From Simplicispira hankyongi (lineage in GTDB: Bacteria; Pseudomonadota; Gammaproteobacteria; Burkholderiales; Burkholderiaceae_C), in NCBI RefSeq assembly GCF_003570885.1, contig NZ_QXJC01000003.1, forward strand, positions 372,001 to 436,000: a DNA stretch of 64,000 bases, written 5' to 3'. The notes under the pieces are model-generated. The model was not told the DNA's origin. It worked only from the letters and a program-made list of their open reading frames with translations, and made no database searches. Shown here in pieces: positions 10,258-27,099 of the stretch. Within the stretch, counting starts at the first letter, position 1; each line of letters starts with the position of its first letter. The translations under genes were made by a program, and so were the position numbers.

Positions 10258-11214
10258 ATGCTCCATCTTTCCGCTGCCTCACAGGGTCGTGCCCTACAGC
10301 TTCGCAGGCGAACTTGGTTGACGATGGCTGCGGCATCCTTACTGGCTTCCTGTAGCAGCAGTTCCCCTGAAAAATTTCAGGCCACCTTTCTCCAGCCTTG
10401 GCAGAGCCATGAAACGCTGCCCCTCGTCGAGTGGCGCAGGCGCCTCAAACTCATGCACGACATGGGGTGCAGCGAAATCATCTTGCAATGGAGTGCCACT
10501 TACGACGGCAGCTTCCCATGGACTATGCCCGATGCGCTGATCCAGCTTCTGTTTGACGAAGGCGCTCACCAAGGCATAGGCATTCGGGTCGGCCTGCCGT
10601 ACGACGAGGGCTGGTGGAATGCCCTGCGCAGCGATAACGCACAGAGTTTGCCCGACTTCCTCGCCAGCACCCAGGCGCGTTGCGTTAAGACTCTGGAGGA
10701 AAGTCGATGGCCAGCACAAGCGGGATTCCGTGGCTGGTACCTCCCTTACGAACTGGACCAATACAACTGGGCGACACCCGAGCGAAGGGCGTTGCTCCTT
10801 CCGTGGCTGAACGCCATTGCTGCCGCGTCCAGCAAGAGCTCCACACAACCACTTGCGCTGTCTACTTTTTACAGCACCTTGCCAACCGCTGGCACCTTGG
10901 CGGGGCTGTGGACCGACATCCTGGATCGGGTGACATTGCGCCCCATGCTGCAGGATGGTGTTGGCGTGGCAGGCCTTGGGAACTACGCAGGGCTGGAGCC
11001 GCTGCGCGTGCTCTTGCTCAATCGGGGAATCGCCTTTGACCTCATCGTTGAACTGTTTGAGCAATTGCCTCCATTGCCCAACACCAACGGCGCCTTCCGG
11101 GCTCGGCCCGCTTCGAGCGACCGTATCCGCACGCAGATGTCCATTGCGCGCAATTACGGTGCAGATCGCATCGTGGCTTTTGCTATCGATCCCTGGATGC
11201 TCAAAAAGTCGTAG
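10258..11214 (+). CDS. DUF4434-like lipoprotein, possible glycan hydrolase
   Basis: A 318-residue predicted lipoprotein: RRRTWLTMAAASLLASC gives a positively charged n-region, hydrophobic core and lipobox LLASC. The mature part (FLQPWQSHETLPLVEWRRRL, CSEIILQWSATYDGSFPW, FRGWYLPYELDQYNW, MLQDGVGVAGLGN) resembles DUF4434, a TIM-barrel-like family of unknown activity. The Glu in YELDQ is a candidate catalytic acid, by analogy only. It is first of four plus-strand genes in the island, separated from the next by 187 bp. By position it could trim or release the island's polysaccharide. The start is uncertain because no strong ribosome-binding site is visible. Comparison with E. coli YbcH, encoded beside nfrA, is worthwhile. 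Confidence 0.6.
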   Translation: MLHLSAASQGRALQLRRRTWLTMAAASLLASCSSSSPEKFQATFLQPWQSHETLPLVEWRRRLKLMHDMGCSEIILQWSATYDGSFPWTMPDALIQLLFDEGAHQGIGIRVGLPYDEGWWNALRSDNAQSLPDFLASTQARCVKTLEESRWPAQAGFRGWYLPYELDQYNWATPERRALLLPWLNAIAAASSKSSTQPLALSTFYSTLPTAGTLAGLWTDILDRVTLRPMLQDGVGVAGLGNYAGLEPLRVLLLNRGIAFDLIVELFEQLPPLPNTNGAFRARPASSDRIRTQMSIARNYGADRIVAFAIDPWMLKKS

Positions 11215-11401: not shown

Positions 11402-12568
11402 ATGAGTTCCACCACCGCAGAGTCTCCGCCGGCATTCGCAGCCTCTGCTGCCGCCACCGCTGCCGTCGCAGCGGAACACGCTGACGCAGTCGACAGGGCA
11501 GGACAGTTGCCACACCATGCACTGGATTCCCTGCGTGCGGAGGGCCTGCTCGGGCTATTGGTGCCGCACCGCTATGGTGGACCAGGCCTGTCGCTGCGTG
11601 AGGTTACGAATGTGTGCAGGCGCTTGGCCGAAGCTTGCGGCTCTACCGGGCTGATCTTTGCAATGCACCAGTCGCAAGCTGCCGTGGCCATTGGCCATGC
11701 CCAGGACAGTGCGTGGCACCACCACCTTCTTGAGCACATGGCCCGCGAGCAATGCCTGATCGCGTCGGCAACGACGGAAGGCGCAACGGGCGGCGCTATC
11801 CGCCACAGTGCCTGCTTTCTGGATGCGCGCGAAGATGGGCTGCATCTGGACAAATTCGGCTCCGTCATTTCCTACGCGCATGCGGCCGACATCTTCCTGA
11901 TCTCGGCCCGGCGCTCGCCAGAGGCTGCGGCATCAGATCAGCAATTGGTCGCTAGCTTGCGCGAGCAAACCACGCTCGCCAGCGCCACTACATGGAACCC
12001 CATTGGCATGCGTGGTGCCTGCACCCAGCGCTTCGATCTGCATGCCCACTGTAGCCAAGAGCAGGTTTTCCCAGACCTCTTCGCGCATGCCATGTCGCAA
12101 ACACTTTTGCCTACCTCGCACATCTTGCTGGGCGCCGTCTGGCTGGGCATTGCGTCCTCCGCACTGGCGCGCGCACGGGCTTTTCTGCGCGCTCGCAATC
12201 GCGCCGGCGTGCCGCTCAACCCGATCGCCAATCTGCGCCTTGCCGAGGGCGAAGCGCTGGTGCAGCAAATGCGCGCCATGATCGCGGCCAATCTGGCGCT
12301 GTACGAAGGTGCAAGCTGCAGCGCTTCGGCCACCGACCGCATGGTCAGCTACAACACGCTGAAGGTCGGCGCATCCGAGTTGGTAGTGCGCATCACCGAT
12401 GTCGCGCTGCGCATTTGCGGTATCCAGGGCTACATGGAAGAAGGCGAGTTTTATCTCAGTCGCCATATCCGTGACGCCCACTCTGCGATGGTGATGGTCA
12501 ATGACGACCGCATTCTCGGCAGCCTCTCCAGCGTGGTGCTCGGCGTGCCCATCACACGCAACGTCTGA
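11402..12568 (+). CDS. Acyl-CoA-dehydrogenase-like flavoprotein beside a carrier protein
   Basis: A 388-residue protein with the acyl-CoA dehydrogenase fold: an N-terminal helical domain (LRAEGLLGLLVPHRYGGPGL), the flavin-site segment ASATTEGATGG, the mid-domain WNPIGMRGACTQ and a C-terminal helical bundle. It sits 29 bp before an acyl carrier gene and a DltA-like ligase, so the likely substrate is a carrier-bound acyl or aminoacyl thioester rather than a CoA ester, as with the prolyl-carrier dehydrogenases of pyrrole pathways. By eye neither usual position of the catalytic Glu is occupied: SH at 239-240, and a VMVNDDR stretch near 365-370. Start 11402 is preferred; upstream ATGs (11372, 11333) add codons rare for this genome. 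Confidence 0.75.
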   Translation: MSSTTAESPPAFAASAAATAAVAAEHADAVDRAGQLPHHALDSLRAEGLLGLLVPHRYGGPGLSLREVTNVCRRLAEACGSTGLIFAMHQSQAAVAIGHAQDSAWHHHLLEHMAREQCLIASATTEGATGGAIRHSACFLDAREDGLHLDKFGSVISYAHAADIFLISARRSPEAAASDQQLVASLREQTTLASATTWNPIGMRGACTQRFDLHAHCSQEQVFPDLFAHAMSQTLLPTSHILLGAVWLGIASSALARARAFLRARNRAGVPLNPIANLRLAEGEALVQQMRAMIAANLALYEGASCSASATDRMVSYNTLKVGASELVVRITDVALRICGIQGYMEEGEFYLSRHIRDAHSAMVMVNDDRILGSLSSVVLGVPITRNV

Positions 12569-12597
12569 ATGCCACCCCACTACCCGTTTCACTGCCC

Positions 12598-12831
12598 ATG
12601 ACCTCCTCCGAAATCGAAACCCAACTGGCCGACATGATCCACGCGGCCATTCTGAAAAAAGTTGACCCGGATACCTTGCTGCTGGAGTCTGGGCTGCTCG
12701 ACTCGGTCGCCGCAGTCGATTTGATGCTGGCCATCGAGGGGCGCTTTGGCTGCACCGTGCCACTTACAGAAGTGGAGGAGCACCTGCACTCCCTGCGCAC
12801 CCTGACCCACTACGTGGCGGCGCACTGCTGA
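12598..12831 (+). CDS. DltC-like acyl/aminoacyl carrier protein
   Basis: A 77-residue carrier protein. The phosphopantetheine site is Ser36 in ESGLLDSVAAVDLML, and the helical pattern through FGCTVPLTEVEEH resembles DltC, the D-alanyl carrier of Gram-positive bacteria, more than fatty-acid AcpP. It should hold an activated acyl group as a thioester on its prosthetic arm, loaded by the adenylating enzyme encoded 13 bp downstream and possibly modified by the flavoprotein encoded upstream. No phosphopantetheinyl transferase gene is in the window, so a housekeeping one is presumably used. Confidence 0.88.
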   Translation: MTSSEIETQLADMIHAAILKKVDPDTLLLESGLLDSVAAVDLMLAIEGRFGCTVPLTEVEEHLHSLRTLTHYVAAHC

Positions 12832-12844
12832 AACCTTCTGCCCC

Positions 12845-14284
12845 ATGCATTTCAACTTTGAAACTGGCGCATTCGCTGATCTGGACACTCGCCCCGACGC
12901 AACCGCCGTCATCGCCCACGATCGCACCCTGAGCTGGCGTGAACTTCAAACCGAGGTCCTGGCCTGGTGCGCACAGGCGCGTGCCTTGGGTCTGGAGGTT
13001 GACACCCCCATCGTCATCCGCGGCCACAAGGAATCGGCATTTTTTGTCGCGCTCACAGGCGCCTTGATGCTGCGTGCACCGTTTGTGCCGGTGGACGCCG
13101 TGTACCCGCAGGAGCGCCTGCTAAGCATCCTGGACATACTCGACGCCAGCCTACTCTACGACACGGCCAGCGCCCAATTCGAAGTGGTGCGGCCGGGCCC
13201 TGCACCGGTGATGCATGAAAAGGCCTTGTGCTACATCATGTTCACTTCGGGCACCACCGGCCAACCCAAGGGGGTGCAGATTGGCCGAGAAAGCGTGCAA
13301 GCGCTCATCGAATGGATGCGCCTGGATTTCGATCTGGGAGCGCACCCCGTGTTTCTCAACCACACGGTCTTCAGCTTCGACGTATCGCTCTACGACGTGT
13401 TCGGCACGCTTGCCATGGGCGGCAGCATCATGATGCTGGACCGCGATACGGCGGCGTCACCGCTGAAGGTCGCTGCGCTCATGGAAGAGCACCAGGTCAC
13501 GACCTGGGTGTCCACGCCCTCCTTCGCCCAACAGCAACTCCCCAATCCAGGCTTCAACCAAACAGCGCTGCCATCGCTGCGAACGCTGCTGTTTTGCGGG
13601 GAGCCACTGCCGGTTCCGTTGGCGCGCGCACTGCGCAAGCGTTTTCCAGATCTGCCCATCCTCAATACCTACGGACCCACGGAGGCGACGGTGGCCACAA
13701 CATTGCTGCGCGTCGAAGACGTCCACCTCGCCAACGACGCCGTTATGCCCATAGGGCGTGCCAAGCGCGGCAGCGCCGTGTACTGCGACGGTGGAGAGCT
13801 GTGCATTGCGGGGCCGCACGTCATGCGGGGCTACCTCAACCGGCCCGATCTGAATGCCACCCGAATGTTCCAGCGTGGTGGAGAACGCGGCTTTCGCACG
13901 GGAGACTTGGGCACCGAATCTGAAGACGGCATGCTGTACTGCCAGGGCCGCATCGACGACCAGATCAAACTGCACGGCTACCGCCTGGAGTTGCTGGAGG
14001 TGGACGCCGCACTGGCCACGCTACCGGGCGCACGCCCAGCCGCCGCCATCGCCCTGCGGCGTGCCGATGGCACCGTTGCACGCCTGGTCGCTTTTGTGGA
14101 AATCGGCTCTGCCAACCCCGGCCTGCCATCAGAGCTGACCAACTGGAAAGCACTGCTCGCCAGCAAGATCCCGCACTACATGCTGCCGACAGAACTGCTG
14201 GCTTGCGAGCGTCTGCCTGTCTCCGTGAACTACAAGGTGGATCGCAAGCAGCTTGCTGCACTCTACCAATCGCTCAACGCTTGA
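12845..14284 (+). CDS. DltA-like amino-acid adenylating enzyme (carrier-protein ligase)
   Basis: A 479-residue stand-alone adenylation protein. Motifs in order: A3 P-loop IMFTSGTTGQPKGV (131-144), A4 FSFDVSLYDVFG, STPSFAQQQL, LLFCGEPLP (Cys251), A5 NTYGPTEATVATT (274-286), A8 DDQIKLHGYRLEL and the A10-like NYKVDRKQL with the predicted catalytic Lys near 464. Cys251 and the STPSF and TYGPTEATVA blocks match D-alanine ligase DltA, so a small amino acid is the likeliest substrate; proline is an alternative given the neighbouring dehydrogenase. It should form an aminoacyl-AMP and load the DltC-like carrier. The 3' end overlaps the convergent algF-like gene by 11 bp. Confidence 0.85.
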   Translation: MHFNFETGAFADLDTRPDATAVIAHDRTLSWRELQTEVLAWCAQARALGLEVDTPIVIRGHKESAFFVALTGALMLRAPFVPVDAVYPQERLLSILDILDASLLYDTASAQFEVVRPGPAPVMHEKALCYIMFTSGTTGQPKGVQIGRESVQALIEWMRLDFDLGAHPVFLNHTVFSFDVSLYDVFGTLAMGGSIMMLDRDTAASPLKVAALMEEHQVTTWVSTPSFAQQQLPNPGFNQTALPSLRTLLFCGEPLPVPLARALRKRFPDLPILNTYGPTEATVATTLLRVEDVHLANDAVMPIGRAKRGSAVYCDGGELCIAGPHVMRGYLNRPDLNATRMFQRGGERGFRTGDLGTESEDGMLYCQGRIDDQIKLHGYRLELLEVDAALATLPGARPAAAIALRRADGTVARLVAFVEIGSANPGLPSELTNWKALLASKIPHYMLPTELLACERLPVSVNYKVDRKQLAALYQSLNA

Positions 14285-14975
14285 AGACATCGGTGCGGTT
14301 GGTCTGCATGACCAAAACCGGCGCCTGTGCCGTTCCCAAAAGGAACAGGCTCAGGTGGTCCCCCGGCTGCAGCGCCGGGAGTTGCTGCGCTGGCGTGCTG
14401 ACCTGTCCACACTGGGCAGCAACGGCCGCACGCACAGGGTTGACCGAGCGCGCCGCCGAACCGTTGGCCGCGACCGATCGAAACACCAGCGTGCCCGACG
14501 GCGAGAGCGCCAGCGCAGCCTCCGGACACGCACGCGCCAGGTTGTAGAAGCGCAGTTCTGCCTTTAGCGCGTCTTCGGTGTCGGTCGTATCGTCCACAGG
14601 TGTTACCGCGTAGCGCTTGCCGCTGCGGCGCAGTACCAAGGTATGAAAACTATCGGGCCGCACCTGCAGCCCGGTGATTTCTGTATCCCCAACCTGTACT
14701 GAAAAATCCTGCCCGCCGTGCACGATGGCATAGCTTCCTGCGGGGGTTTGGCCGCCAATGCTCTGCACGGAGCCTTTGGCCACGCGCACGGCGAGCGCTG
14801 GCGCTTCTGGATTCACCACCCGCACATAGGACGACCCAGCCGGCGGACGCGCTGCGTAAAGCTGCGACAAAACCCCCTCCTGCGCCGCTGCCAAACCGCA
14901 GGCGGCAATCAACACCAGCACAAGGGCATGGTGCACCCGATCAAAAAAACGAGTTTTTTTAGTAAAGCAAAACAT
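14274..14975 (-). CDS. AlgF-like periplasmic polysaccharide acetylation protein
   Basis: A 233-residue exported protein: a charged N-terminus (MFCFTKKTRFF), a hydrophobic stretch (HALVLVLIAACGLAAAQ), then a domain with LYAARPPAGSSYVRVVNP, the typical opening of AlgF. In alginate producers AlgF is a periplasmic partner of AlgI and AlgJ needed for O-acetylation. The gene is last in the eight-gene minus-strand operon. Its ATG shares one base with the MBOAT stop codon (TGATG), implying coupled translation. Its last 11 bp overlap the end of the convergent dltA-like gene. Confidence 0.78.
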   Translation of the reverse strand: MFCFTKKTRFFDRVHHALVLVLIAACGLAAAQEGVLSQLYAARPPAGSSYVRVVNPEAPALAVRVAKGSVQSIGGQTPAGSYAIVHGGQDFSVQVGDTEITGLQVRPDSFHTLVLRRSGKRYAVTPVDDTTDTEDALKAELRFYNLARACPEAALALSPSGTLVFRSVAANGSAARSVNPVRAAVAAQCGQVSTPAQQLPALQPGDHLSLFLLGTAQAPVLVMQTNRTDVFKR

Positions 14976-16558
14976 CAGAATTGGAAGTAGAGAAACCGGG
15001 TTTCCCGGTGGAGGTGGATCAGGCAGAAAAAGAGCGTCACCAGCAGCACCCCCAGCCAAGGGAGGCTCGGCTTCCAGCGCAGCCAGCGCACCCGCGCCTC
15101 ATCCGTGCGTGCGAGCGCTGGCGAGAAACGCCCCAGAATCTGGTGGGTATTGGGCGCCAGCCATACGATGAGCAGCAACAGCACCAAGTAAACAGCCAGC
15201 AAGTTCCGCCCCAGCAGCAATCGCCAACCCTCTATTCCTCCCACCTCGCGCAGGAGGCCACCTGGCCACTGCCAGGCTTCAAACCCCTGCAAGCCGGCCA
15301 TGCCCTGCAGCAACGCCACGGCGTCGTGCACGCCCGCGGCACGGAAAAACGCAAAGGCAGCCACCACGGCAACAAAGGTCAGCAGCACACAGGTGCTGCG
15401 CCACAGCCACTGTGTCCAGGCGCGCTGCAGTTTCAGGCGGCTACCCACCGCAATACGCCAGCCATGGTTCACGCACAGGTAGGCGCCATGCAGCACGCCG
15501 TAAATAAAGAACTGCAGGCCAGCGCCGTGCCACACACCGGCCAGCGCCATGGTGTAGAGGGTTGGCGCGGCAACCATGAGCGCAAAACCTGTGGGTGTCC
15601 GGCTGCCCACAGACCCGACCGCCAGACCCCGGCGGCTGCGCCAACGCGAGATCTGCATTGCCATGGGGTAGTACAGGTAGGCGGTCAGGTAGCGCGTCAG
15701 CGTCATATGCCAGCGTGCCCAGTAATCGATGATGCACACGGCCTTGTACGGCGAATTGAAGTTCAATGGAAAACGAATGCCAAACATCTTGGCCAGTCCG
15801 AGTGCCATGTCGGAGTAGCCCGAAAAGTCGAAATACAGCTGCATGGCATACGCCAGACTCGTAGCCCAGGCACCCCAGAACTGAAGGCCTTCTGGAGCCA
15901 TGAAACCTGCGTCGGCATACGGTGCAATGCTGTCCGCAAACAGCACTTTCTTCGCAAGCCCCATAAGAAATAAGGTGCCGCCAATGGACAGATTTTCTGC
16001 CCTGAACCGATAGTTTTCGGGTTCGGCAAACTGCGGCATCATTTCCTTGTGGTGCAACACCGGCCCGGCAATCAGATGCGGGAAGAACGTGACGAAAAGG
16101 GTGTGCTTGAGCAAGCTGGGGGATGCCACCAGGCCAGCCCGGCAATCAAGCAGATAGCCAATCTGTGTGAAGGTAAAAAACGAAATCCCGAGGGGCAACA
16201 AGATGCTGTCCGGCGAATTCGTGTACAGACCAAAGCCCTGCAGTGCTGCGATCAGACTCACGAGGTACTTGTAATAAATAAGCAGCAACAAATTGCATGC
16301 CACGCCGAAGGCCACTATCCAGCCCTGGCGTTTTTTCTGTCCAGCATGGCGCAGCACGTAGAGGCTGACCACATAGTTGAAAAGAATCGAGGTGACAAGG
16401 AGCACGACAAAGCGTGGGTTCCACCACCCGTAAAACACAAACGAGGCAAGGCATAGCCAAATTGCCGCCCACTTCAAGCGAATCGATCCCAGCAGGTAAT
16501 AGCCGCCCAGCGCCACGGGCAGGAACAGAAACAAAAAGAGGTAAGAGTTGAAAAGCAA
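14975..16558 (-). CDS. AlgI-like MBOAT O-acyltransferase
   Basis: Multi-pass inner-membrane acyltransferase of 527 residues. The opening MLFNSYLFLFLFLPVAL is the typical AlgI start, read here from a TTG codon at 16558 with GAGG 6 nt upstream that overlaps the previous stop. Core motifs are MQLYFDFSGYSDMALGLAKM, DYWARWHMTLTRYL and the two expected His residues in AGVWHGAG (His344) and GVLHG (His357). AlgI proteins pass an acyl group across the membrane to AlgJ/AlgX-type transferases; DltB does the same for D-alanine from DltC. The neighbouring carrier-protein genes make a carrier-derived donor possible. Confidence 0.9.
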   Translation of the reverse strand: MLFNSYLFLFLFLPVALGGYYLLGSIRLKWAAIWLCLASFVFYGWWNPRFVVLLVTSILFNYVVSLYVLRHAGQKKRQGWIVAFGVACNLLLLIYYKYLVSLIAALQGFGLYTNSPDSILLPLGISFFTFTQIGYLLDCRAGLVASPSLLKHTLFVTFFPHLIAGPVLHHKEMMPQFAEPENYRFRAENLSIGGTLFLMGLAKKVLFADSIAPYADAGFMAPEGLQFWGAWATSLAYAMQLYFDFSGYSDMALGLAKMFGIRFPLNFNSPYKAVCIIDYWARWHMTLTRYLTAYLYYPMAMQISRWRSRRGLAVGSVGSRTPTGFALMVAAPTLYTMALAGVWHGAGLQFFIYGVLHGAYLCVNHGWRIAVGSRLKLQRAWTQWLWRSTCVLLTFVAVVAAFAFFRAAGVHDAVALLQGMAGLQGFEAWQWPGGLLREVGGIEGWRLLLGRNLLAVYLVLLLLIVWLAPNTHQILGRFSPALARTDEARVRWLRWKPSLPWLGVLLVTLFFCLIHLHRETRFLYFQF

Positions 16559-16565
16559 GGCTGCC

Positions 16566-17672
16566 TCAGTGCATGGCGGCCCACGCGCGCTGCTCTTGTG
16601 CGGACAGCGGTAGTGACAACGAGAGTTCCGAGAACACCCACACCGCCACCTTGAGGCTGTGGGGCCAGCGGTCCTGGCGCGCCAGCGCGTCAAGCATGGC
16701 ACCGGAGAAATAGCCGCCGTCCTGGCTTAAATTCCACACCTCACGACCCAGACTGCGGCCCAAGCGATCGGCAAATTCACTGCGCAGGCCATTGGAATCG
16801 CCCACCAACAGCACCTCGACTGGCGCCACATCGTCCAGCAAGCCCCCGCGGCGCTGCGCTTCCAGGTGCGTGGGAAGGAACTGCTCCACAGGCGGGCGCC
16901 AACCGATGGGTGCCTGCGCCAGATCAGCCAGCACGAGCAGATCACCCATGCGCACCTCAGGCTTGGGACCTGCACTTTCGACGAACTGCGTCTCGCCTTT
17001 GCCACCCAACAGCGGGAGCAGTGCATCGCCTATGCGATCCGCCGCCACCTGTGCGCCAGCGGGTGCCATGTGCACGTCGGTGCGATAGAAGGCCTGGGGC
17101 AGCGACACCAAGGGGGGCCGCAAGTCAATCAACGGGACGCCTGCTGTCGCGAGTGCGGCCTGCCACGTATTCCAGCGGGCGTGCATGAGGGGTGCCTGGT
17201 GCAGGCCGCACAAGTGTTTTGACTCGATCCGCGACTTATCGGGTACGGTGGCAACCACCAGGCGCACTCCGGCTTGTTCAAGACGCGAGGCCCAGCGGCG
17301 CATCAGGTCGATCCGCTGTGACAGCACGTGCGCCCGAGTCGGCGGTGGGCGCAAACCGTCGCGGTAAAACAGCCAGCCAGGGCAGCCTTCACGCACCTGC
17401 CGCCCAAGGTCGCCCAGCAGGCGGTAGCGCAGTGCAGCCGACCAACGGTCCATGCGGGCCTGGCCAGGCAGCGTCCCCAAGGCGGTGTTGACGAGTTTGC
17501 CCGCGTGCCCATCCACCCAGGTGGACGGCTGCCATTCGCTTGGAGCAAAACGCAACTGCGCCAGGCGCAGGGCGCCCCAGCCGAACGCAGCGGCAAGAGC
17601 GATGGCTACGGCGAAGGCAGTACGCCGGTGTCCTTCACGGTACGGTGCATCCGACGGTAGCGGCATTGCCAT
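16566..17672 (-). CDS. AlgJ/AlgX-like SGNH acyltransferase, second copy (membrane-anchored)
   Basis: A 368-residue protein with an N-terminal membrane helix (AFAVAIALAAAFGWGALRL, 19-37) and a periplasmic SGNH-like domain. PGWLFYRDGL resembles the AlgJ/AlgX opening. The expected triad is visible: YRTDVHM (Asp199, His201) and VLLVGDSNGLRSEF (Ser293). It would transfer the acyl group delivered by the MBOAT to the polysaccharide. The start is ATG 17672, 5 bp after the stop of the other copy; the longer open frame runs back into that gene. The stop overlaps the ribosome-binding site of the MBOAT gene. Confidence 0.78.
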   Translation of the reverse strand: MAMPLPSDAPYREGHRRTAFAVAIALAAAFGWGALRLAQLRFAPSEWQPSTWVDGHAGKLVNTALGTLPGQARMDRWSAALRYRLLGDLGRQVREGCPGWLFYRDGLRPPPTRAHVLSQRIDLMRRWASRLEQAGVRLVVATVPDKSRIESKHLCGLHQAPLMHARWNTWQAALATAGVPLIDLRPPLVSLPQAFYRTDVHMAPAGAQVAADRIGDALLPLLGGKGETQFVESAGPKPEVRMGDLLVLADLAQAPIGWRPPVEQFLPTHLEAQRRGGLLDDVAPVEVLLVGDSNGLRSEFADRLGRSLGREVWNLSQDGGYFSGAMLDALARQDRWPHSLKVAVWVFSELSLSLPLSAQEQRAWAAMH

Positions 17673-17677
17673 GGCAG

Positions 17678-18667
17678 CTACGCCGGCAGCGCGGCTGCGA
17701 GCCTTTGGCTCCAATCCTGCTCGGAAATGAGCGATGCGCTGTCCCAAAGACCCTTTGCATTCGGACCCAAATGCAAGTTGGGTTCGAACAACTGCCAGAC
17801 GACGACCTGTGGTGGCTGCGTCCGAAATGCCGAGGATTCCAGGTACTCCATCAGCACGATCCAAAATCCTACGTCACCCGGTTTCCAATTGACAGACACC
17901 GGCCGGTCAAGCAGGTTGGACAATTTTTGCGGAAAACCGAAATACGGCTGCACCATGCTGTTTCCAGTAACGTGCACCGGAGCTGGCGCACTATCGAGAA
18001 GCCCCGTTTGTTCCGTCGCTCGTCGCACCGTAAAGATTTCACGTCCCGCCGCACGCCGCTGCTCAGGAGACAGGAAACGGTCGGCCAAGTCGCCGTAGCG
18101 CCGCTCTTTGGTAATAGCGCCCAGCGCAAGGCCGGTTCCGGGCTTGCCTGCAAGTTGGGGCACCAATTGGTGAATCAGCTCCGCCGTGGCCTGCGCCGTG
18201 GCATCGGCAGCGATCTGTGTCCAGTGCTGATCCGTACGGTAGTACACCTGTTCGCCCTTGGCCTGCAGTGCACGGAACAATGCTTCGGCATCAAATCCCG
18301 GAACCTTGGCCGCAGCCAGCCGGTCCCGAATGCCGGCATAGCGGCCGAGCATTTCAGGTGTCAGCGCGTCGTCTCCCACCAGCTTGTCGGCATAAAAAAG
18401 CTTCTTGCTGGGAATCACAGGCGCCACCAGCGCAATGCCCCGTGCGGCCAGGCGTCGGCGTACCTCCGCCACCCTCGCCACGTTGGCGTCAATCGCCGCC
18501 CAATCGGGTGCATCCGTGGTTCCCCAGGCAGGAAACAGGTAGTTGTCTTTGCCAATGATGGCCAGGATGTCCGGCTGCGCGTGGGCCGCACCTGCCAACC
18601 ACAGTCCTAGAGGCCAACTCAGCAGGGTTCGGCGGGTGAGTACGCAAAAGGGAGCGGAATGTTTCAT
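17678..18667 (-). CDS. AlgJ/AlgX-like SGNH acyltransferase, first copy (exported)
   Basis: A 329-residue protein with a cleavable signal peptide (TRRTLLSWPLGLWLAGAAHA); the twin Arg resembles a Tat signal, though Sec export is equally possible. The mature domain begins with IIGKDNYLFPAWG, as in AlgJ. The triad is conserved as YRTDQHW (Asp146, His148) and HVTGNSMVQPYFGFP (Ser237, with GNS rather than GDS). It is predicted to O-acylate the exopolysaccharide in the periplasm. It starts 40 bp after nfrA and ends 5 bp before the second SGNH gene. The two copies are diverged, not a recent duplication. Confidence 0.78.
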   Translation of the reverse strand: MKHSAPFCVLTRRTLLSWPLGLWLAGAAHAQPDILAIIGKDNYLFPAWGTTDAPDWAAIDANVARVAEVRRRLAARGIALVAPVIPSKKLFYADKLVGDDALTPEMLGRYAGIRDRLAAAKVPGFDAEALFRALQAKGEQVYYRTDQHWTQIAADATAQATAELIHQLVPQLAGKPGTGLALGAITKERRYGDLADRFLSPEQRRAAGREIFTVRRATEQTGLLDSAPAPVHVTGNSMVQPYFGFPQKLSNLLDRPVSVNWKPGDVGFWIVLMEYLESSAFRTQPPQVVVWQLFEPNLHLGPNAKGLWDSASLISEQDWSQRLAAALPA

Positions 18668-18707: not shown

Positions 18708-21700
18708 TCAATAGGAATAGGTCAGACTCAGAAAGACCCCTCGGGCACGGTCGGTCACGCCGCCCAGGCGCGCTCGGTACTGCAAGGTGCCATCGATATA
18801 GGAGCTTTGCGCGCGGTAGTGGTCACCTTGAAGCCAGTAGCGCACATTGACGCCCACGCCTGCACCCACCGACCAGTCGCTGCCGCTCCCTGTAAGGTCA
18901 AAGCTCGCATTGCCCGCGACAGGTGAGCCGGTCACGCGGTTGCGGTTGGAGTACCAGTCGGCTGCCACCGAGACATGGGGAAAGAACACCAGGCGATCGC
19001 TGTAATCCGTGAGGAAACTGCGGCCTACACGCACCTCACCAGCGGCAAAACCCTGGCCACGCTTGAGCTTGCCGTTAGAGCTTCCCAGCACCTGGCCAGT
19101 GCTGTCGCGCAGGGTATAGGCGGTAGGCGCATCCAGCAGCGTGTAGCCCGCCTGCAGGTAGCCTTCCATGGTGAACCAGCTCTTGGTATCGATGCGCAGT
19201 CCCGTGCCTTCATAGAAACCGTAGAGCACATAGGCCTGCCAGGCGCCTGCGGCTGCATCGGTTCGGTAGTCCACCGCACTGGCCTGCTGGTTCAGCAAAC
19301 AGCGCACGGCGTTGGAACTTGGGTTGAGAAGCCCTGTGCGGGTTGCATTGCCGAGGAAGAATTGCCGTTCCAGGCCAAAGGTGAGGTTCTTTTCGGCCCA
19401 CGGCGTATAGCGGACACCGAGCGCGCCCGTGGTCGTGGGAAAGCCCGATGGGGCGTGCGTGCGGCTCTCCGCGACAGCTATCGCACCGCCGCCACAAGGG
19501 TCTGGCACGCTCTGCGCACCCGTGACATCGGTGCCGCTGTGCAGCGTATTCGACAAGCGCCCGTAGACATCAAAAGTGCTGCTGCTGGAATTAAGAAACT
19601 CAGGCGGTCGCCAATACGCTTCCACCGTGCTGAACTCGGAATTTCCCGGAACGGAAACAGGCTGCCCAACCAGGCCGTTCGACGGGGCACGGGCACCACG
19701 GTAGCCGACCGACGCTGTCAGCCCCCATTCACGAGAAAAGTTGGCAATGGCGCTGCGGGTATCGAAGCGCTGCTGTTTGTCCAGCGGCAGTTTGCCTTCA
19801 TCGGCGTCGTCAATCGCTTGGCGCAGCATGGCAGCGGCCGGCAACCGCCGGCCGGTTGCGGCCATGGCATACGCTTCGTCGAGCAAGTTGGTGGCGGGTG
19901 CGTTTCCTGTATTGCGCGCCGCGACAAAATCCTCCAAGGCCAACAGGGGTTTCCCATTGGCCAGCCGCAAATAGCCGCGCTGGCGCAGCAGGTTGGCGTC
20001 ATTGGCTTGCGCGGCCAATGCCTGGTCAAGCCGTGCCATGGCCTCCTGCTGCTCCACCGGAGTTCCCGCCGCCAGCGCCGTCGTCAGCAGCGTTTGATTG
20101 CCCGCATTTTTAGGGTCTTCTGCGACCGCCTTGCGCGCCAAGGCAATCGCCTCTGGATAGCGCTTCTGGCCGTAAGCCGCATAGGCCCGCGCCGCTGGGT
20201 TGTCGGTACCAGGGGCATCCCACGGCTCCATTTCGCACACCGTTCCATAGGGCGTGTCCCGGCACAGCTGCAATGGGGCATAGGCCGTCACAGGCAGCAC
20301 GTCTGCTGGCCTCCACAAGCTGCCGATAGCCTTCGCTGCCTCGCGGCGAGTCTTCGCCTGGCTGTCACCGGCAGGTAGCGGCTCCAGCAGCGCCAGCGCC
20401 CGCCCCCGTTGTCCGTTGGCAAGCGCAAGGTCGGCACCAATCAAACGGGTGTTGCGGCGCAGGGCCTCGTCGATCCAGTCCTGGGCAAGGACAGCATCAA
20501 TATCCTGCTGCGCAGCATCTCCCTGCCCCAGTTGTTGGCGCAGGTACGCTCGCTGGAGATGAATGGTGGTATTTTCATCATCGTCTTTCAACGCGTCGCT
20601 TGCCGCCACTTCTGCTCCTGCAATGTCCTGCGTTGCCTGCAAGGCACTGATGAGCAACAGACGATGGCTGGCGACATCCGGGGCCCGGCGCACAGCTTCG
20701 CGCGCCTCTGGCACAGCGTCCTGGGGACGGTTCGCGGCGATCGCGTCGAAAGCCTTCTGAGCGTACTGAACAGCGATCGCCTGACTGGCCACGCGCATCA
20801 AGGCTCCAATGGCATCGCGGTTGGGTGCGCCCAGCTCGATTGCTTGTTGGCCTGCAGCAATCATGTTCTCGTAGCGCTGTAGATCTTCCAGGGCATTGAG
20901 CCAAAGGAGTGCCCAATCGCCCTGGCTGGGATCCGTGCGCACGGCAATTTCTGCATTGGAAGCGGCCTCCGCGTACTTTCCGGAGGCCAGCTGCTGGAAC
21001 GCGAGCGTGGCGATAGGAAAGGCCTTGCGGTATTCCGGTGTCGTAGGCACAGTGCCGGCGGCCCCTGGCGCCGACTTCAGGTTCGTAAGCGCCGCCTCCA
21101 GCTCGGGACTGGTGTAACCGTTGGTGATGGCCTGCTCGGCAGCATGCACCGCGTCGTCAATGCGCCCCAATTTCTGCAAGGCATACACGCGCAATTGGTA
21201 CAAACGAATTACATCCGGACGCAGTGCCAAAGCGGCATCTGCACGTTTCAGCGCAGTTTCATAGTCGCCGCGGGCGTAGGCCTTGTAGCCTTGATCCGAA
21301 AGGTGCCACGCCCGGCCGCGCAGGCCGCCACTGCTGCGCCTGGCCCGTGCTGCTGGCTTGCTGTTGGGTTCCGCGCGCTGTGGACGCTCGATCTGATCGG
21401 GGGGCGCAATCGCGGGGAAAGGTGCCACAGGTTGAACGGGTTGCACCGGCGCATCGGGTCGCGGGGCTTGCCAAACCGGCAAGGCGGGCATTTGCAGCCT
21501 GACGTACCGCATCAAAGCGCGCTGGAAGACGTTGTCCGTGATGGTATCTGCGGGGCCAGCGCTCCAGGAGCTGTCCTGCATGTGCTCAATTTCCTGCAAA
21601 GCATGCGCAATCAACTCGGGCCCAAGCCGGTTGGTGGACAGCGGTGCGGGTGGCGCTGCTGCCAGCACTGGCTGCCCCCTTGGAGCACCCCGATGCAGCG

Positions 21701-21974
21701 TCAACGCGCGGGCCAGCCTCAAGCGTGCAGTCACGACCTCGCGCGGGTCACGCAGCAACTGCGCGACTTGAGGCGCTTCTTGCGGAGCGTTCGGCCTGGG
21801 TGCTGGGCGCGATGGATCGGGCATCGTCATCACCATGGACATCGTGAGATGCAAGGGAATCTCGTCGCCCTGTGCTGCAGTGTCCCCGTGCTGCGAGGCG
21901 GCCCCTGCAGAAGCAAGCGGCCAAGCAAGGGCCAGCGACATGACCAAAAGGGTGCGGCTGCACAGCGGCTTCAT
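18708..21974 (-). CDS. nfrA: NfrA-like outer-membrane protein (TPR plus C-terminal barrel)
   Basis: A 1088-residue outer-membrane protein. A signal peptide (1-26), a proline-rich linker, then TPR-like repeats from ~220 to ~700 (QGYKAYARGDYETALKRADA; AYAAYGQKRYPEAIALARKA) precede a C-terminal domain matching the phage N4 adsorption protein A family (VEAYWRPPEFLNSSS; SWFTMEGYLQAGYTLLD). It ends SLTYSY, an aromatic terminus typical of beta-barrels. The layout resembles exporters such as BcsC and PgaA, so it probably carries the polysaccharide through the outer membrane. In E. coli NfrA is the N4 phage receptor component. Its ATG overlaps the nfrB stop by 4 nt. Confidence 0.87.
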   Translation of the reverse strand: MKPLCSRTLLVMSLALAWPLASAGAASQHGDTAAQGDEIPLHLTMSMVMTMPDPSRPAPRPNAPQEAPQVAQLLRDPREVVTARLRLARALTLHRGAPRGQPVLAAAPPAPLSTNRLGPELIAHALQEIEHMQDSSWSAGPADTITDNVFQRALMRYVRLQMPALPVWQAPRPDAPVQPVQPVAPFPAIAPPDQIERPQRAEPNSKPAARARRSSGGLRGRAWHLSDQGYKAYARGDYETALKRADAALALRPDVIRLYQLRVYALQKLGRIDDAVHAAEQAITNGYTSPELEAALTNLKSAPGAAGTVPTTPEYRKAFPIATLAFQQLASGKYAEAASNAEIAVRTDPSQGDWALLWLNALEDLQRYENMIAAGQQAIELGAPNRDAIGALMRVASQAIAVQYAQKAFDAIAANRPQDAVPEAREAVRRAPDVASHRLLLISALQATQDIAGAEVAASDALKDDDENTTIHLQRAYLRQQLGQGDAAQQDIDAVLAQDWIDEALRRNTRLIGADLALANGQRGRALALLEPLPAGDSQAKTRREAAKAIGSLWRPADVLPVTAYAPLQLCRDTPYGTVCEMEPWDAPGTDNPAARAYAAYGQKRYPEAIALARKAVAEDPKNAGNQTLLTTALAAGTPVEQQEAMARLDQALAAQANDANLLRQRGYLRLANGKPLLALEDFVAARNTGNAPATNLLDEAYAMAATGRRLPAAAMLRQAIDDADEGKLPLDKQQRFDTRSAIANFSREWGLTASVGYRGARAPSNGLVGQPVSVPGNSEFSTVEAYWRPPEFLNSSSSTFDVYGRLSNTLHSGTDVTGAQSVPDPCGGGAIAVAESRTHAPSGFPTTTGALGVRYTPWAEKNLTFGLERQFFLGNATRTGLLNPSSNAVRCLLNQQASAVDYRTDAAAGAWQAYVLYGFYEGTGLRIDTKSWFTMEGYLQAGYTLLDAPTAYTLRDSTGQVLGSSNGKLKRGQGFAAGEVRVGRSFLTDYSDRLVFFPHVSVAADWYSNRNRVTGSPVAGNASFDLTGSGSDWSVGAGVGVNVRYWLQGDHYRAQSSYIDGTLQYRARLGGVTDRARGVFLSLTYSY

Positions 21975-23674
21975 ACGGCGACGATATCCTGCATGGCGGG
22001 GTGCGGCGGTGCCACGGGCTTGGATTCCGCTTCTTGAAATAAGATGGCTTCTTCCAGCGTGCCTTCGTCCAGCCAGCCCTGCTCCAACAAAATGGCGCCT
22101 AACGGACGGCGCGAGTCGCGCTGCATGACCAGTGCCTGCTGAAGGTGACTGGCATCAATGGCACGCCAGGACAGCAGCACTTCGCCAAGACGCTGGCGAT
22201 GCCGGTCAAGCTGGTCAGCCGAAGGGAAATCGTGCATGGTCTTGTCCCAGACCAGTCGGGTGCCCAGCAATTTGTGCGACAAGAACAGGCGCCAAGCGCG
22301 GGCTGCGGCCATGGCGTTGATGAAGTTGCCTATCACCATGCGAGGAATGGACAGCAGTCCATGCTCCCACCCATACATGCTGCCAACAAAGTAGGCGCGC
22401 TGTACCACGCGCAGCAGGAGGGCGATGGCATTGAGCCCCATGATGGTCATGAACCAGCCATTGATACGGAACACGGATGGGTAGTACACCGTCCACCAGC
22501 CCAGTTGATCGGCGGCATAGAACACCAGGAAATTGAGCATCAGCAAATAGCCCAGGATGGCCACGAAAGCGGTGACCAAGCCTTTGCGATCACGGAACAA
22601 CAGGTACTTGGTCGAGAGCGGGCCGGCCCAGCCGACTTGCTGCCAGCCTTGTAAACCAATACCAATGGTCCAGCGCGCCTTTTGCCGATAGGCCGCCCGG
22701 AAGTTGTCGGGGAAAAATTCACGGACGCCCAAAGGCATCTGGATGGAACCCATCTTTTCTCGCCCGAGCCCAAACCAGGAAGTGCGCCGCGTCACGTAGT
22801 CCACGTCGAATTTGCCAAAAATCTGCTTCATCCCCATGCGGTTGAGGCGCGTGCCAATGTCGTAATCCTCGGTCAAGCTCTCTACATTGAACGGCTCGTT
22901 GCTCGTCGTGGCCGTCAGCACCTGCATCGCGCTATGGGAAAAGCAGGTGCCCACGCCAGCCGACGGCACCATGCTGGAGAGGCTCTCGCGCACCACCAGA
23001 TCTTTGCTGTGCCACTCCGCAAACTCATCCATGTAAGTCCCCGCGATCAGCTCGAACCAACTGCGTTCCAGCGATGTCACCGGCAGTTGGATGAAATCCA
23101 TGCGCGGCAGCAGATAGTTGTAGTACTTGAGTTCCAGCGGGTGCAGCACATCTTCGCTGTCGTGCAACACGAAGCCGGCAAAAACTTGCGAGACCGCCCG
23201 TTCGTGCAGAAATGCCGCCTGCACGATCCAGTTGAGGCAATCGGCCTTGCAGGTCGGCCCATCATGCGGGACCTCGACACGCACCAGTTGCCGGTACCGC
23301 CGGCGCATGCGCTCCACCTCGGCAATGGTGCGTTCGTCGTTGCGGTAGGTTCCCACGAAGATGGTGTAGTTCGTATAGTCCAGAACCGACACCATGTTGC
23401 TGAGCATGGGCGCGATCACGTCGTATTCCAGCCATGCCGGCACCATGATCGCCATAGGTTGCTCAGCATGCGAACGCAGTTGCTCGGCCGTCAGCCGCTT
23501 GTACTGACGACGCCGCACCACGACCGTGCGGTAGATCTGCCGCACCCAGTACCAGGCGTCAATAAACAAGTCATCCAGACTAGAGAGCAGGATGACGACG
23601 CCTACCACCGCCGTCACGATTTCGAGACCGCGGTAGTAGTCGGCAAACAGATAGGGCCAGTACAGCGTGAACAT
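21971..23674 (-). CDS. nfrB: NfrB-like family 2 glycosyltransferase with C-terminal MshEN c-di-GMP domain
   Basis: Inner-membrane polysaccharide synthase of 567 residues. An N-terminal helix precedes a GT2 domain with VLHDSEDVLHPLEL (172-175), SLTEDYDIGTRL (268-270) and QKARW (331-335), the processive-synthase set, then further membrane helices (~365-435). The C-terminus has two tandem 24-residue MshEN-type motifs: RLGEVLLSWRAID to Gln518 (Arg in place of the usual Gly at motif position 10) and PLGAILLEQGWLD to Gln547. In E. coli this domain makes NfrB c-di-GMP-responsive. It is shorter than E. coli NfrB, about 745 residues. It lies 27 bp after the BcsB-like gene and overlaps nfrA by 4 nt. 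Confidence 0.9.
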   Translation of the reverse strand: MFTLYWPYLFADYYRGLEIVTAVVGVVILLSSLDDLFIDAWYWVRQIYRTVVVRRRQYKRLTAEQLRSHAEQPMAIMVPAWLEYDVIAPMLSNMVSVLDYTNYTIFVGTYRNDERTIAEVERMRRRYRQLVRVEVPHDGPTCKADCLNWIVQAAFLHERAVSQVFAGFVLHDSEDVLHPLELKYYNYLLPRMDFIQLPVTSLERSWFELIAGTYMDEFAEWHSKDLVVRESLSSMVPSAGVGTCFSHSAMQVLTATTSNEPFNVESLTEDYDIGTRLNRMGMKQIFGKFDVDYVTRRTSWFGLGREKMGSIQMPLGVREFFPDNFRAAYRQKARWTIGIGLQGWQQVGWAGPLSTKYLLFRDRKGLVTAFVAILGYLLMLNFLVFYAADQLGWWTVYYPSVFRINGWFMTIMGLNAIALLLRVVQRAYFVGSMYGWEHGLLSIPRMVIGNFINAMAAARAWRLFLSHKLLGTRLVWDKTMHDFPSADQLDRHRQRLGEVLLSWRAIDASHLQQALVMQRDSRRPLGAILLEQGWLDEGTLEEAILFQEAESKPVAPPHPAMQDIVAV

Positions 23675-25912: not shown

Positions 25913-27099
25913 AGGTGAGACTCCGCAATAAAAGCGTTCATGAGAGGCTGCGATTGGGCAATCGGCCCGGGTCTGAATTCGGCAAAGGCGCGCCCGCACA
26001 AGGCATCGACGATGCGCTGGCAGGCGTGTCCGTCGCCATAAGGGTTGCCTTTGCGGCAAAACTCGGTATGCAGGGAGGCATCGTCCAGCAGGCGCGTCGC
26101 CTCGGCGGTAATGCGCTCGCGCGAGGTCCCCACCAGGCGCACCGTCCCTGCCGCCACGGCTTCCGGGCGCTCGGTCACATCGCGCATGACCAGCACCGGC
26201 TTGCCAAGGGCAGGCGCTTCTTCCTGCACGCCGCCAGAATCGGTCAGGATGAGGTAGGCGCGCCGCATCAGCCAGACGAAATCCACGTAGTCGAGCGGCT
26301 CAATCAAGTGGACATTGGCCTGACTGGCCAGGGATTGCCGCACAACATCCCGCACGTTGGGATTCAAATGCACCGGGTAAACGATTTGCACATCGTCCCG
26401 CTGTGCAAGCGCCTCCAAAGCAGCGCAGATATTGCGAAATCCTTCACCGAAATTTTCTCGGCGGTGGCCCGTCACCAACACAAGTTTTCGCTCGGCATCC
26501 AGCCAGCTGTAGCGCTGCGCCAGAGCGCGCTGGCGCTCAGCATCGGCGTCAAGCCGAGCCAGCGTGGCATTGAGCGCATCGATGACCGTGTTGCCCGTCA
26601 CCCAGATATGGCCCGATACCTTTTCTTGCAGCGCTGCCTCGCGTGCCGCCGGCGTGGGAGCGAACAGCCAGGTGCTCATCGAATCGACGAGCCGGCGGTT
26701 CATCTCCTCGGGAAAAGGCGAATGCATGTTGCCGCTGCGCAGGCCGGCTTCCACATGCCCCACGGCAATGCGGCGATGAAACGCAGCCATGGCTGCCGCT
26801 GCCGCTGTTGTGGTATCGCCATGCACCAGCACGCAATCGGGCTGCTCGGCGTCAAGCACCGCACCCACAGCCGTCAGCAGCCGTGCATACAGACCATTGA
26901 GCGTCTGATTCGGCCGCATGACATCGAGTTCGTGCTGGGCCTGCAGACCAAACAGCGCCATGACCTGCGCCAGCATCTCACGGTGCTGCCCAGTAACGCA
27001 AACGCTGCTATGTAACTGTGGCTCCCGACCCAGTGCTGCCACAAGGGGAGCCATCTTGATGGCTTCGGGACGGGTACCGAAAATTGAAAGAACGCGCAT
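25909..27099 (-). CDS. wecB: UDP-N-acetylglucosamine 2-epimerase, non-hydrolysing
   Basis: Cytosolic enzyme converting UDP-GlcNAc to UDP-ManNAc, 396 residues. Characteristic blocks are SIFGTRPEAIKMAPLV, VHGDTTTAAAAAMAAF, GHVEAGLRSGNMHSPFPEE and LTDSGGVQEEAP. As first gene of the nfr-like operon it presumably supplies UDP-ManNAc to NfrB; in E. coli WecB is likewise required for the NfrAB glycan. A sigma-70-like promoter lies ~140 bp upstream. No wecC (UDP-ManNAc dehydrogenase) is nearby, arguing for ManNAc rather than ManNAcA as the sugar used. Confidence 0.95.
   Translation of the reverse strand: MRVLSIFGTRPEAIKMAPLVAALGREPQLHSSVCVTGQHREMLAQVMALFGLQAQHELDVMRPNQTLNGLYARLLTAVGAVLDAEQPDCVLVHGDTTTAAAAAMAAFHRRIAVGHVEAGLRSGNMHSPFPEEMNRRLVDSMSTWLFAPTPAAREAALQEKVSGHIWVTGNTVIDALNATLARLDADAERQRALAQRYSWLDAERKLVLVTGHRRENFGEGFRNICAALEALAQRDDVQIVYPVHLNPNVRDVVRQSLASQANVHLIEPLDYVDFVWLMRRAYLILTDSGGVQEEAPALGKPVLVMRDVTERPEAVAAGTVRLVGTSRERITAEATRLLDDASLHTEFCRKGNPYGDGHACQRIVDALCGRAFAEFRPGPIAQSQPLMNAFIAESHL

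Follow-up and report, generated by a model that had tools for sequence, protein, structure and literature searches.

A probable hybrid of the Dlt and Alg acylation pathways in an nfr-type exopolysaccharide gene cluster of Simplicispira hankyongi and related bacteria

We analysed a window of 64,000 nucleotides from Simplicispira hankyongi (contig NZ_QXJC01000003.1, positions 372,001 to 436,000) in which genes for a flavoprotein, a DltC-like carrier protein and a DltA-like ligase converge on genes for AlgF-, AlgI-, AlgX- and AlgJ-like proteins, beside an nfr-type exopolysaccharide synthase. We found that the ligase and carrier genes are linked to the acyl-transfer genes, a link that is well supported, and we consider it probable that the cluster combines parts of the Dlt and Alg pathways into one hybrid, in which a carrier-loaded and mostly flavin-modified aminoacyl group would be put on an exopolysaccharide controlled by cyclic di-GMP (c-di-GMP). 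We infer the substrate, the direction of flow, the chemistry of the flavin step, the identity of the polymer and the transfer itself. All seven genes lie where the original prediction had placed them and on the strands it gave, as judged by open reading frames and by Pfam and NCBIfam matches. The system reaches past 11402-18667, with a DUF4434 gene before the flavoprotein gene and with genes for NfrA-like, NfrB, BcsB-like and WecB proteins to 27099 (Ppant, phosphopantetheine):

11402-12568, plus strand: flavoprotein of the acyl-CoA-dehydrogenase superfamily, here called type A (Pfam Acyl-CoA_dh_N/1)
12598-12831, plus strand: DltC-like carrier protein of 77 residues, Ppant attachment at Ser36 (PP-binding, PF00550)
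12845-14284, plus strand: DltA-like amino-acid:carrier ligase, an adenylation domain (AMP-binding, 200 bits)
14274-14974, minus strand: AlgF-like periplasmic adaptor (Pfam AlgF, 59 bits, cut-off 34.4)
14975-16558, minus strand: AlgI/PatA-type MBOAT of 527 amino acids with a TTG start (Pfam MBOAT, 61.5 bits)
16566 to about 17675, minus strand: AlgX-type SGNH acyltransferase (Pfam ALGX, 202 bits)
17678-18667, minus strand: AlgJ-type SGNH acyltransferase with Asp146, His148 and Ser237 (Pfam ALGX, 203 bits; alignment A1)
18708-21974, minus strand: NfrA-like export protein, named by its position beside NfrB
21971-23674, minus strand: NfrB-type processive glycosyltransferase with a c-di-GMP-binding MshEN motif (PRK15489, 908 bits, cut-off 537)
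23702-26059, minus strand: BcsB-like periplasmic protein (Pfam BcsB, 21.2 bits, cut-off 21)
25909-27099, minus strand: WecB-type UDP-GlcNAc 2-epimerase (TIGR00236, 474 bits, cut-off 210)
10258-11214, plus strand: DUF4434 protein of the PRK09936 family (Pfam PF14488, 166 bits)

The carrier gene stands directly downstream of the flavoprotein gene. The two sets were said to meet with no gap, and indeed the 3' ends of the convergent ligase and AlgF genes share 11 bases (14274-14284); the ATG of the AlgF gene in turn overlaps the stop codon of the MBOAT gene.

The prediction that the activation genes belong with the Alg-type acyl-transfer genes is upheld by conservation. Scanning 84,980 species genomes with two conserved peptides of the AlgJ-type protein as bait yielded 69 loci, of which we counted 66 as cluster loci, leaving out L168 (an AlgJ-like match only), L175 (a fragment match) and L176 (Ruminococcus, 28%). 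Counts over loci use the named set, since several other loci appear to be repeats of named ones (L095/L111, L096/L114, L097/L115, L034/L150 and L036/L156). The MBOAT gene is present in 64 of the 66 loci and the ligase and carrier genes are present in 62; the two loci that have an MBOAT gene but no ligase gene (L114 and L132) are on contigs that end before the ligase and carrier genes, and every uncut cluster locus with an MBOAT gene has both (62/62). The loci of Pseudomonas brassicae (L151, on a 3.1-kb contig) and P. aegrilactucae (L155) are without MBOAT, AlgX, carrier and ligase genes and keep AlgJ and AlgF, and we found no comparable ligase elsewhere in either genome (best match in the L155 genome, 34% to a long synthetase; none in the L151 genome at E 1e-50). 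The MBOAT, AlgX, carrier and ligase genes are thus present or absent as a set. The P. aegrilactucae locus (L155) suggests that AlgJ and AlgF also serve a purpose where the rest of the acyl-transfer block is missing. In the same locus (L155:9917-20906), the nfr cluster is followed by genes resembling the bcs cellulose genes. A search with the MBOAT in 200 family and 398 phylum genomes gave a close group at 59-73% identity, with the other matches listed at 50% or below; those of the close group that we fetched all have ligase and carrier genes apart from L096, which its contig cuts short, and the ligase gene of L098 is frame-shifted (this frame-shift and that in the MBOAT end of L160 were left unmended).

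The cluster occurs in two versions that differ in layout. In type A, the version of the window, flavoprotein, carrier and ligase genes lie on the opposite strand and converge on AlgF in all 16 uncut loci, which bears out the view that this arrangement is not due to chance; the genera are Acidovorax, Paracidovorax, Pseudacidovorax, Xylophilus, Giesbergeria and Ideonella, together with one Burkholderiaceae genome. In type B, all 46 loci have the carrier and ligase genes placed between those for MBOAT and AlgF and read in the same direction; these loci are from Achromobacter, Pseudomonas, Stenotrophomonas, Delftia, Diaphorobacter and Bordetella genomospecies, and further from Cupriavidus, Trinickia, Burkholderia sp., Pandoraea and one Alcaligenaceae genome. 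The nfr genes and AlgJ are on one strand in 64 of the 65 loci with NfrB (the exception is L120).

These distributions bear on another reading, namely that MBOAT, AlgX, AlgJ and AlgF carry out ordinary O-acetylation from acetyl-CoA and that ligase, carrier and flavoprotein make an unrelated product. The alg genes are read as an acetyltransferase machine in the part of PMC8669469 available to us and as O-acetyltransferase homologues in the available part of PMC8669472, and PatA uses acetyl-CoA according to the accessible text of PMC12148441. Furthermore, among 51 non-cluster MBOAT loci with flanks of about 1.5 kb, a ligase match occurred in 2 and a carrier match in none, so that AlgI-type MBOAT loci without a ligase match at that distance are common (49/51). 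Such a reading leaves unexplained the co-occurrence in 62 of 62 loci, the two loci from which all four of ligase, carrier, MBOAT and AlgX are missing, and the place of the type B ligase and carrier genes between MBOAT and AlgF, and we regard it as quite unlikely.

We also surveyed NfrB, which was found in 20 of 299 genomes, 17 of them without a close MBOAT, and fetched 11 of those 17 loci. None of the 11 had an MBOAT, AlgX, AlgJ or carrier match, and one (L205) had a weak ligase match (64 bits). In two of them (L203 and L204), where NfrB is 61-62% identical, the WecB-BcsB-NfrB-NfrA core is the same but the decoration block is missing. Because such related cores exist without it, the decoration block is an add-on module of a BcsB-containing nfr system. 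Its occurrence is patchy.

In the hybrid pathway that we propose, WecB would supply UDP-N-acetylmannosamine (UDP-ManNAc), NfrB would polymerise it under c-di-GMP control into what is probably a ManNAc-containing exopolysaccharide, and the BcsB-like and NfrA-like proteins would export the polymer, as suggested by their E. coli counterparts. The DltA-like ligase would adenylate a small amino acid (most probably D- or L-alanine in type A) and load it on the Ppant arm of the carrier, where in most members the flavoprotein would modify the aminoacyl group. The AlgI/PatA-type MBOAT would then take the group, modified or not, from the carrier onto its own C-terminal Tyr (in FLYFQF), and its periplasmic transfer to the polymer would be the work of AlgJ and AlgX, held together by AlgF. 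The original prediction had the MBOAT pass the group to the SGNH transferases; that route is kept here, but the hand-over would probably run through the C-terminal Tyr of the MBOAT rather than directly.

The acyl-transfer proteins keep the residues expected for such a route. The MBOAT ends in the acyl-shuttle hexapeptide FLYFQF, with Tyr524, and has His284 and His344 (alignment A4). The shuttle motif is intact in all 62 complete cluster MBOATs, with one more cut and one frame-shifted; one catalytic His is conserved in 65 of 65 and the other in 63 of 65, the two exceptions being the cut row and the frame-shifted row. The Asp and His of the AlgX triad are found in 65/65 and the Ser in 63/65 (the exceptions, L158 and L159, are rows with the neighbouring AlgJ frame), and those of the AlgJ triad in 67/67, with the Ser in 66/67 (L171 is gapped). 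By its length, C-terminal extension and shuttle motif, the MBOAT is classed by sequence as AlgI/PatA-type. It scores 165 bits with the NCBIfam DltB model, below the cut-off of 375; S. aureus DltB (404 amino acids) aligns at 29% identity to residues 171-453 of the 575-residue MBOAT open reading frame, that is, to the core only, and the best Foldseek matches of the MBOAT are DltB. The available part of PMC10641220 reports an AlgIJFX complex and AlgF as the most likely mediator between AlgJ and AlgX; by analogy, we assume an AlgIJFX-like assembly here. Two loci without an nfr match have similar parts; they are the two non-cluster MBOAT loci with a ligase match, now read over their full stretch. 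In one (L216:2368-9483), the AlgI-type MBOAT is accompanied by two ALGX proteins, a GNAT protein, an adenylating ligase and a carrier, and the other (L217:5901-10637) has a ligase, an MBOAT and a small protein that is carrier-like by sequence and has no Pfam match. Both are possibly further carrier-fed AlgI-type systems, in which case the concept may extend beyond nfr.

We examined what the ligase might activate by reading ten pocket positions from an alignment to Bacillus cereus DltA (PDB 3fcc). The type A pocket is DVYSLCTVAK or DVYSVCTVAK in the window and the 16 named loci; the window has DVYSLCTVAK, which is the same as the B. cereus pocket (DLMSLCTVAK) at 8 of 10 positions, compared to 7 of 10 for the other variant. 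The type B pocket is DFFSVGSCSK; L139 and L142 each differ from it at one position (DFFS[VML]GSCSK), and L172 has DFFSYGGVSK; the 46 identical type B pockets in our table come from 44 different loci. The Asp expected for an alpha-amino acid, which we take to bind the alpha-amino group of the substrate, is present in all compared ligase pockets. Since the type A pocket is DltA-like, we predict that the type A ligase takes alanine or a near relative, and that type B takes something else. The carrier has a PP-binding domain, and its Ppant Ser is kept in all 63 aligned carriers. A single phosphopantetheinyl-transferase match (PF01648, C1:1262187-1262552) was found in the genome of the window, so the fatty-acid carrier and this one may depend on the same enzyme.

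Separate Dlt-like sets occur in other Gram-negative genomes. One (L035:9735-13930), whose genome also has a type B cluster, comprises a DltA-like ligase (52% to that of the window) with the pocket DLYSLCTVAK, a short MBOAT, a 436-residue protein in the place of DltD, and a carrier. Another lies between insertion sequences on a Klebsiella electrica plasmid (L032:5549-9601; annotated DltD, MBOAT, AMP-binding and carrier), and its ligase and carrier are also found on a K. pneumoniae plasmid (L033). A Klebsiella dlt-like ligase has the pocket DLISIISIAK and is without the Cys at position 301, presumably the chirality residue of DltA. In the ligase tree (32 rows, long branches), types A and B each form one group, and the branching gives no order of relatedness among type A, type B and the Gram-negative dlt ligase. 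A sequence labelled as a Staphylococcus aureus plasmid (L214, CP052031.1) carries the dlt operon among genes that look chromosomal, perhaps because the assembly is mislabelled.

The flavoenzymes differ between the two versions as well. In type A, flavoprotein and carrier genes are co-directional neighbours in all 16 uncut loci, with 24-92 bases from one match to the next, and the flavoprotein has Ser and Val at the Glu columns of the long-chain (LCAD) and medium-chain (MCAD) acyl-CoA dehydrogenase types in 15 of 17 sequences, with 2 gapped (alignment A2 takes 13 of the 16 named loci). In type B, a canonical acyl-CoA-dehydrogenase-type gene follows the ligase in 40 of 46 loci, and the LCAD/isovaleryl-type Glu, placed by alignment with human LCAD and presumably catalytic, is present in all 42 sequences, which come from 40 different loci. 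Ligase type and flavoenzyme type covary without exception (16/16 type A, 40/40 type B). Five of the six Pandoraea loci (L124, L127, L128, L131 and L140) are without a dehydrogenase, and their genomes have no orthologue elsewhere (best 35%, compared to 77% in P. horticolens); the L172 cluster also has none, with a partial 59% match elsewhere in its genome. Because these clusters lack the enzyme, the flavin step is usual but dispensable. Thus, of the seven-gene co-conservation that had been proposed for survey, ligase and carrier do keep company with the acyl-transfer genes, but the flavoprotein does not follow as one gene, being replaced by a second type from the same acyl-CoA dehydrogenase (ACAD) superfamily and missing from the five Pandoraea loci.

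We also looked at relatives of the type A flavoprotein outside the cluster, which occur in 20 of 299 phylum genomes at 37-43% identity. An amino-acid:[carrier] ligase adjoins the flavoprotein relative in all 12 neighbourhoods fetched (of 20 found), with a carrier in 11 and a DUF1839 gene in 9, and three of these ligases score 485-525 bits on NF005479 (cut-off 357). No MBOAT, DltA-like ligase, SGNH or nfr match was found in these 12 stretches of 14-16 kb. In our sample, therefore, the trio was not found to be common apart from alg and nfr genes, since the relatives outside carry another amino-acid ligase. In an alignment of six sequences (A3), the window flavoprotein is homologous over its full length to its relatives, at 36-41% identity and with shared invariant residues. 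These neighbourhoods (L189-L200) consist of flavoprotein, carrier, amino-acid:[carrier] ligase and often DUF1839, and GH2-like genes adjoin in some; together they make up an aminoacyl-carrier pathway. Because the relatives adjoin amino-acid:[carrier] ligases, this ties the flavoprotein family to aminoacyl-loaded carriers, with a DltA-like ligase in the window replacing the tRNA-synthetase-like one. In a Foldseek search with its AlphaFold model, DszC was nearest, and KijD3/nitrososynthase, desulfinase and short-chain ACADs were close behind; because these folds rank so close together, the model makes dehydrogenation, oxygenation and N-oxidation all possible. The AlphaFold models are of moderate confidence (pLDDT 76 for the flavoprotein, 73 for a second model), and we drew no tunnel or docking argument from them.

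We considered that the flavoprotein might have another job altogether, such as recycling misloaded carrier, and that the cluster performs plain D-alanylation, with unmodified D-alanine going to the AlgI-type MBOAT and the polymer. The type A pocket is close to that of DltA, including the Cys that is presumably its chirality determinant, and the five Pandoraea loci manage with no dehydrogenase. The adjacency of flavoprotein and carrier in every uncut type A locus, the flavoenzyme in 40 of 46 type B loci, a type B pocket that is not DltA-like, and the company that the flavoprotein family keeps elsewhere with aminoacyl-carrier ligases all point the other way, and we think plain D-alanylation somewhat unlikely. 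A bolder reading has a c-di-GMP-controlled ManNAc-type polymer esterified with flavin-modified amino acids, in which two lineages would have swapped both pocket and flavoenzyme to make two different groups; it is possible, and short of likely, that this is correct in full. The modified group, built on the stand-alone carrier and passed on via the AlgI-type MBOAT, might in that case be an aminoacyl group that is N-oxidised or has an alpha,beta double bond.

A further alternative is that flavoprotein, carrier and ligase make a free small molecule (e.g. a pyrrole or a dehydroamino acid) and that the neighbourhood reflects chance or shared regulation. Prolyl-carrier oxidation pathways are likewise built from a stand-alone ligase, a carrier and an ACAD-type dehydrogenase, and the flavoprotein does match the RedW model, weakly (51 bits, cut-off 650). 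The tight co-occurrence of the trio with the alg block, the absence of MBOAT from loci without the ligase, the DltA-like type A pocket, and the type B locus L034, where no extra gene lies between NfrB and the DUF4434 gene, make a free product highly improbable. A PltF/PltL/PltE-type prolyl-carrier oxidation set was considered for type A and rejected, on the DltA-like pocket, that RedW score and the lack of a catalytic Glu. One type B enzyme was tested with the prolyl-carrier dehydrogenase (PltE/RedW/AnaB) model and scored 207 bits, with the cut-off at 650.

Several observations weigh against the hybrid of Dlt and Alg pathways with a flavin-modified group. Among AlgI/PatA-type MBOATs, PatA is known to use acetyl-CoA and the others are believed to do so, and the docking of the carrier on the MBOAT is a prediction. 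The shuttle motif is also present in all 50 complete control MBOATs; since all complete non-cluster MBOATs have it, the FXYXXF end marks, as far as sequence goes, the AlgI/PatA type and not this cluster. Both activation proteins score below the Dlt cut-offs, the ligase with 352-355 bits on the DltA models (cut-offs 476 and 560) and the carrier with 37.8 bits on the DltC model (cut-off 52.35). The only genome of the same genus in the MBOAT search draw gave no MBOAT match, and a two-peptide AlgJ bait can miss loci with a diverged AlgJ. With regard to the flavin step, the Pandoraea loci leave room for the enzyme to serve something else, and, because each ligase type forms one group in the tree, the covariation of pocket and flavoenzyme may reflect a single historical swap.

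The relationship to described systems is one of partial likeness in each case. The cluster shares with the Dlt pathway (DltA, DltB, DltC, DltD and DltX; D-alanylation of teichoic acid) the adenylating ligase, Ppant carrier, MBOAT and SGNH protein, as well as the MBOAT fold and, in type A, a pocket near that of DltA. It differs in having a 527-amino-acid MBOAT with its own C-terminal shuttle, where Dlt has a DltB of about 400 amino acids without FXYXXF and a separate DltX; in having two PF16822 ALGX SGNH proteins and AlgF in place of DltD; and in its extra flavoprotein, its adjoining Gram-negative exopolysaccharide synthase and its scores below the Dlt cut-offs. With Pseudomonas AlgI-AlgJ-AlgF-AlgX (and PatA/PatB and WssH/I) it shares the FXYXXF MBOAT, two AlgX-family SGNH proteins with intact triads and AlgF, but here a carrier and an amino-acid ligase are in the cluster and the synthase is NfrB-type, not an alginate synthase. 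NfrB with its glycosyltransferase and MshEN motifs, the NfrA-like protein, the DUF4434 protein and WecB resemble the E. coli NfrB-NfrA-YbcH system (NGR), to which a BcsB-like protein and the whole decoration block are added here. Finally, clusters with a PRK07080-family amino-acid:[carrier protein] ligase have the same flavoprotein family beside a Ppant carrier and an amino-acid ligase; the ligase there is seryl-tRNA-synthetase-like and the one here is a DltA-like adenylation enzyme (PRK07080 itself was not searched in the cluster loci).

The prediction that no described system combines all these parts is consistent with our literature search, but the nfr-alg association within it had already been published. 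Alginate-acetyltransferase-related genes in the Simplicispira suum nfr cluster, with a suggestion of polymer modification, appear in the available text of PMC8669469 (2021), and that of PMC8669472 (2021) describes, for Achromobacter xylosoxidans, a BcsB homologue and homologues of O-acetyltransferases next to nfrA, nfrB and wecB. The main texts of these two papers, as far as available and supplements apart, make no mention of Dlt, a carrier protein, AMP-binding, a ligase or a dehydrogenase. By the titles and abstracts among the matches listed from a mostly open-access full-text literature, we found no earlier description of the combination. The part of PMC12148441 (2025) available to us sets out the acyl-shuttle mechanism and the carrier-fed Dlt route, and has the non-Dlt MBOAT/SGNH pathways lacking such a carrier. 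What appears to be new is the joining of two known kinds of polymer acylation.

If the hybrid is real, teichoic-acid D-alanylation is no longer the one pathway with a carrier-fed MBOAT, AlgI/PatA-type MBOATs accept aminoacyl groups as well, and "acetyltransferase" annotations in exopolysaccharide loci need to be checked for carrier and ligase genes. Amino-acid esters, perhaps of unusual chemistry, would then be present on a polymer of Pseudomonas, Achromobacter, Delftia, Acidovorax and their relatives, and the aminoacyl-carrier-associated flavoprotein family would gain a testable role. The E. coli counterpart of the polymer is a phage receptor, according to the available part of PMC8669472. 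Should the group also be flavin-modified, polysaccharides would gain a chemically new type of decoration, and AlgI-type MBOATs would prove able to work with a carrier.

A scan of genome contigs with the ligase alone gave no match, and a promoter and terminator scan gave nothing above shuffles. The nfr core proteins themselves are conserved to different degrees. NfrB keeps the DSED, TED and QKARW motifs and the MshEN c-di-GMP motif; it scores 560 bits on the NfrB model, below the cut-off of 1170, and 47.8 bits on the c-di-GMP motif NF053729, over the cut-off of 38. The NfrA-like protein, with homologues in all 66 cluster loci, has a repeat-rich N-terminal part and, among curated and NCBIfam models, a weak TPR-type NCBIfam match only. 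A BcsB-like protein is present in 63 of the 66 loci and a WecB homologue in 59, contig ends cutting some of the remainder. By its family, WecB is the likely source of UDP-ManNAc, which would make the polymer ManNAc-based; such a polymer is likewise postulated in the accessible part of PMC8669472. The DUF4434 protein is found in 60 of the 66 loci, with a PRK09936 score of 83 bits (cut-off 344). We take DUF4434 to be the family of E. coli YbcH, and the protein is probably a periplasmic accessory of the nfr system.

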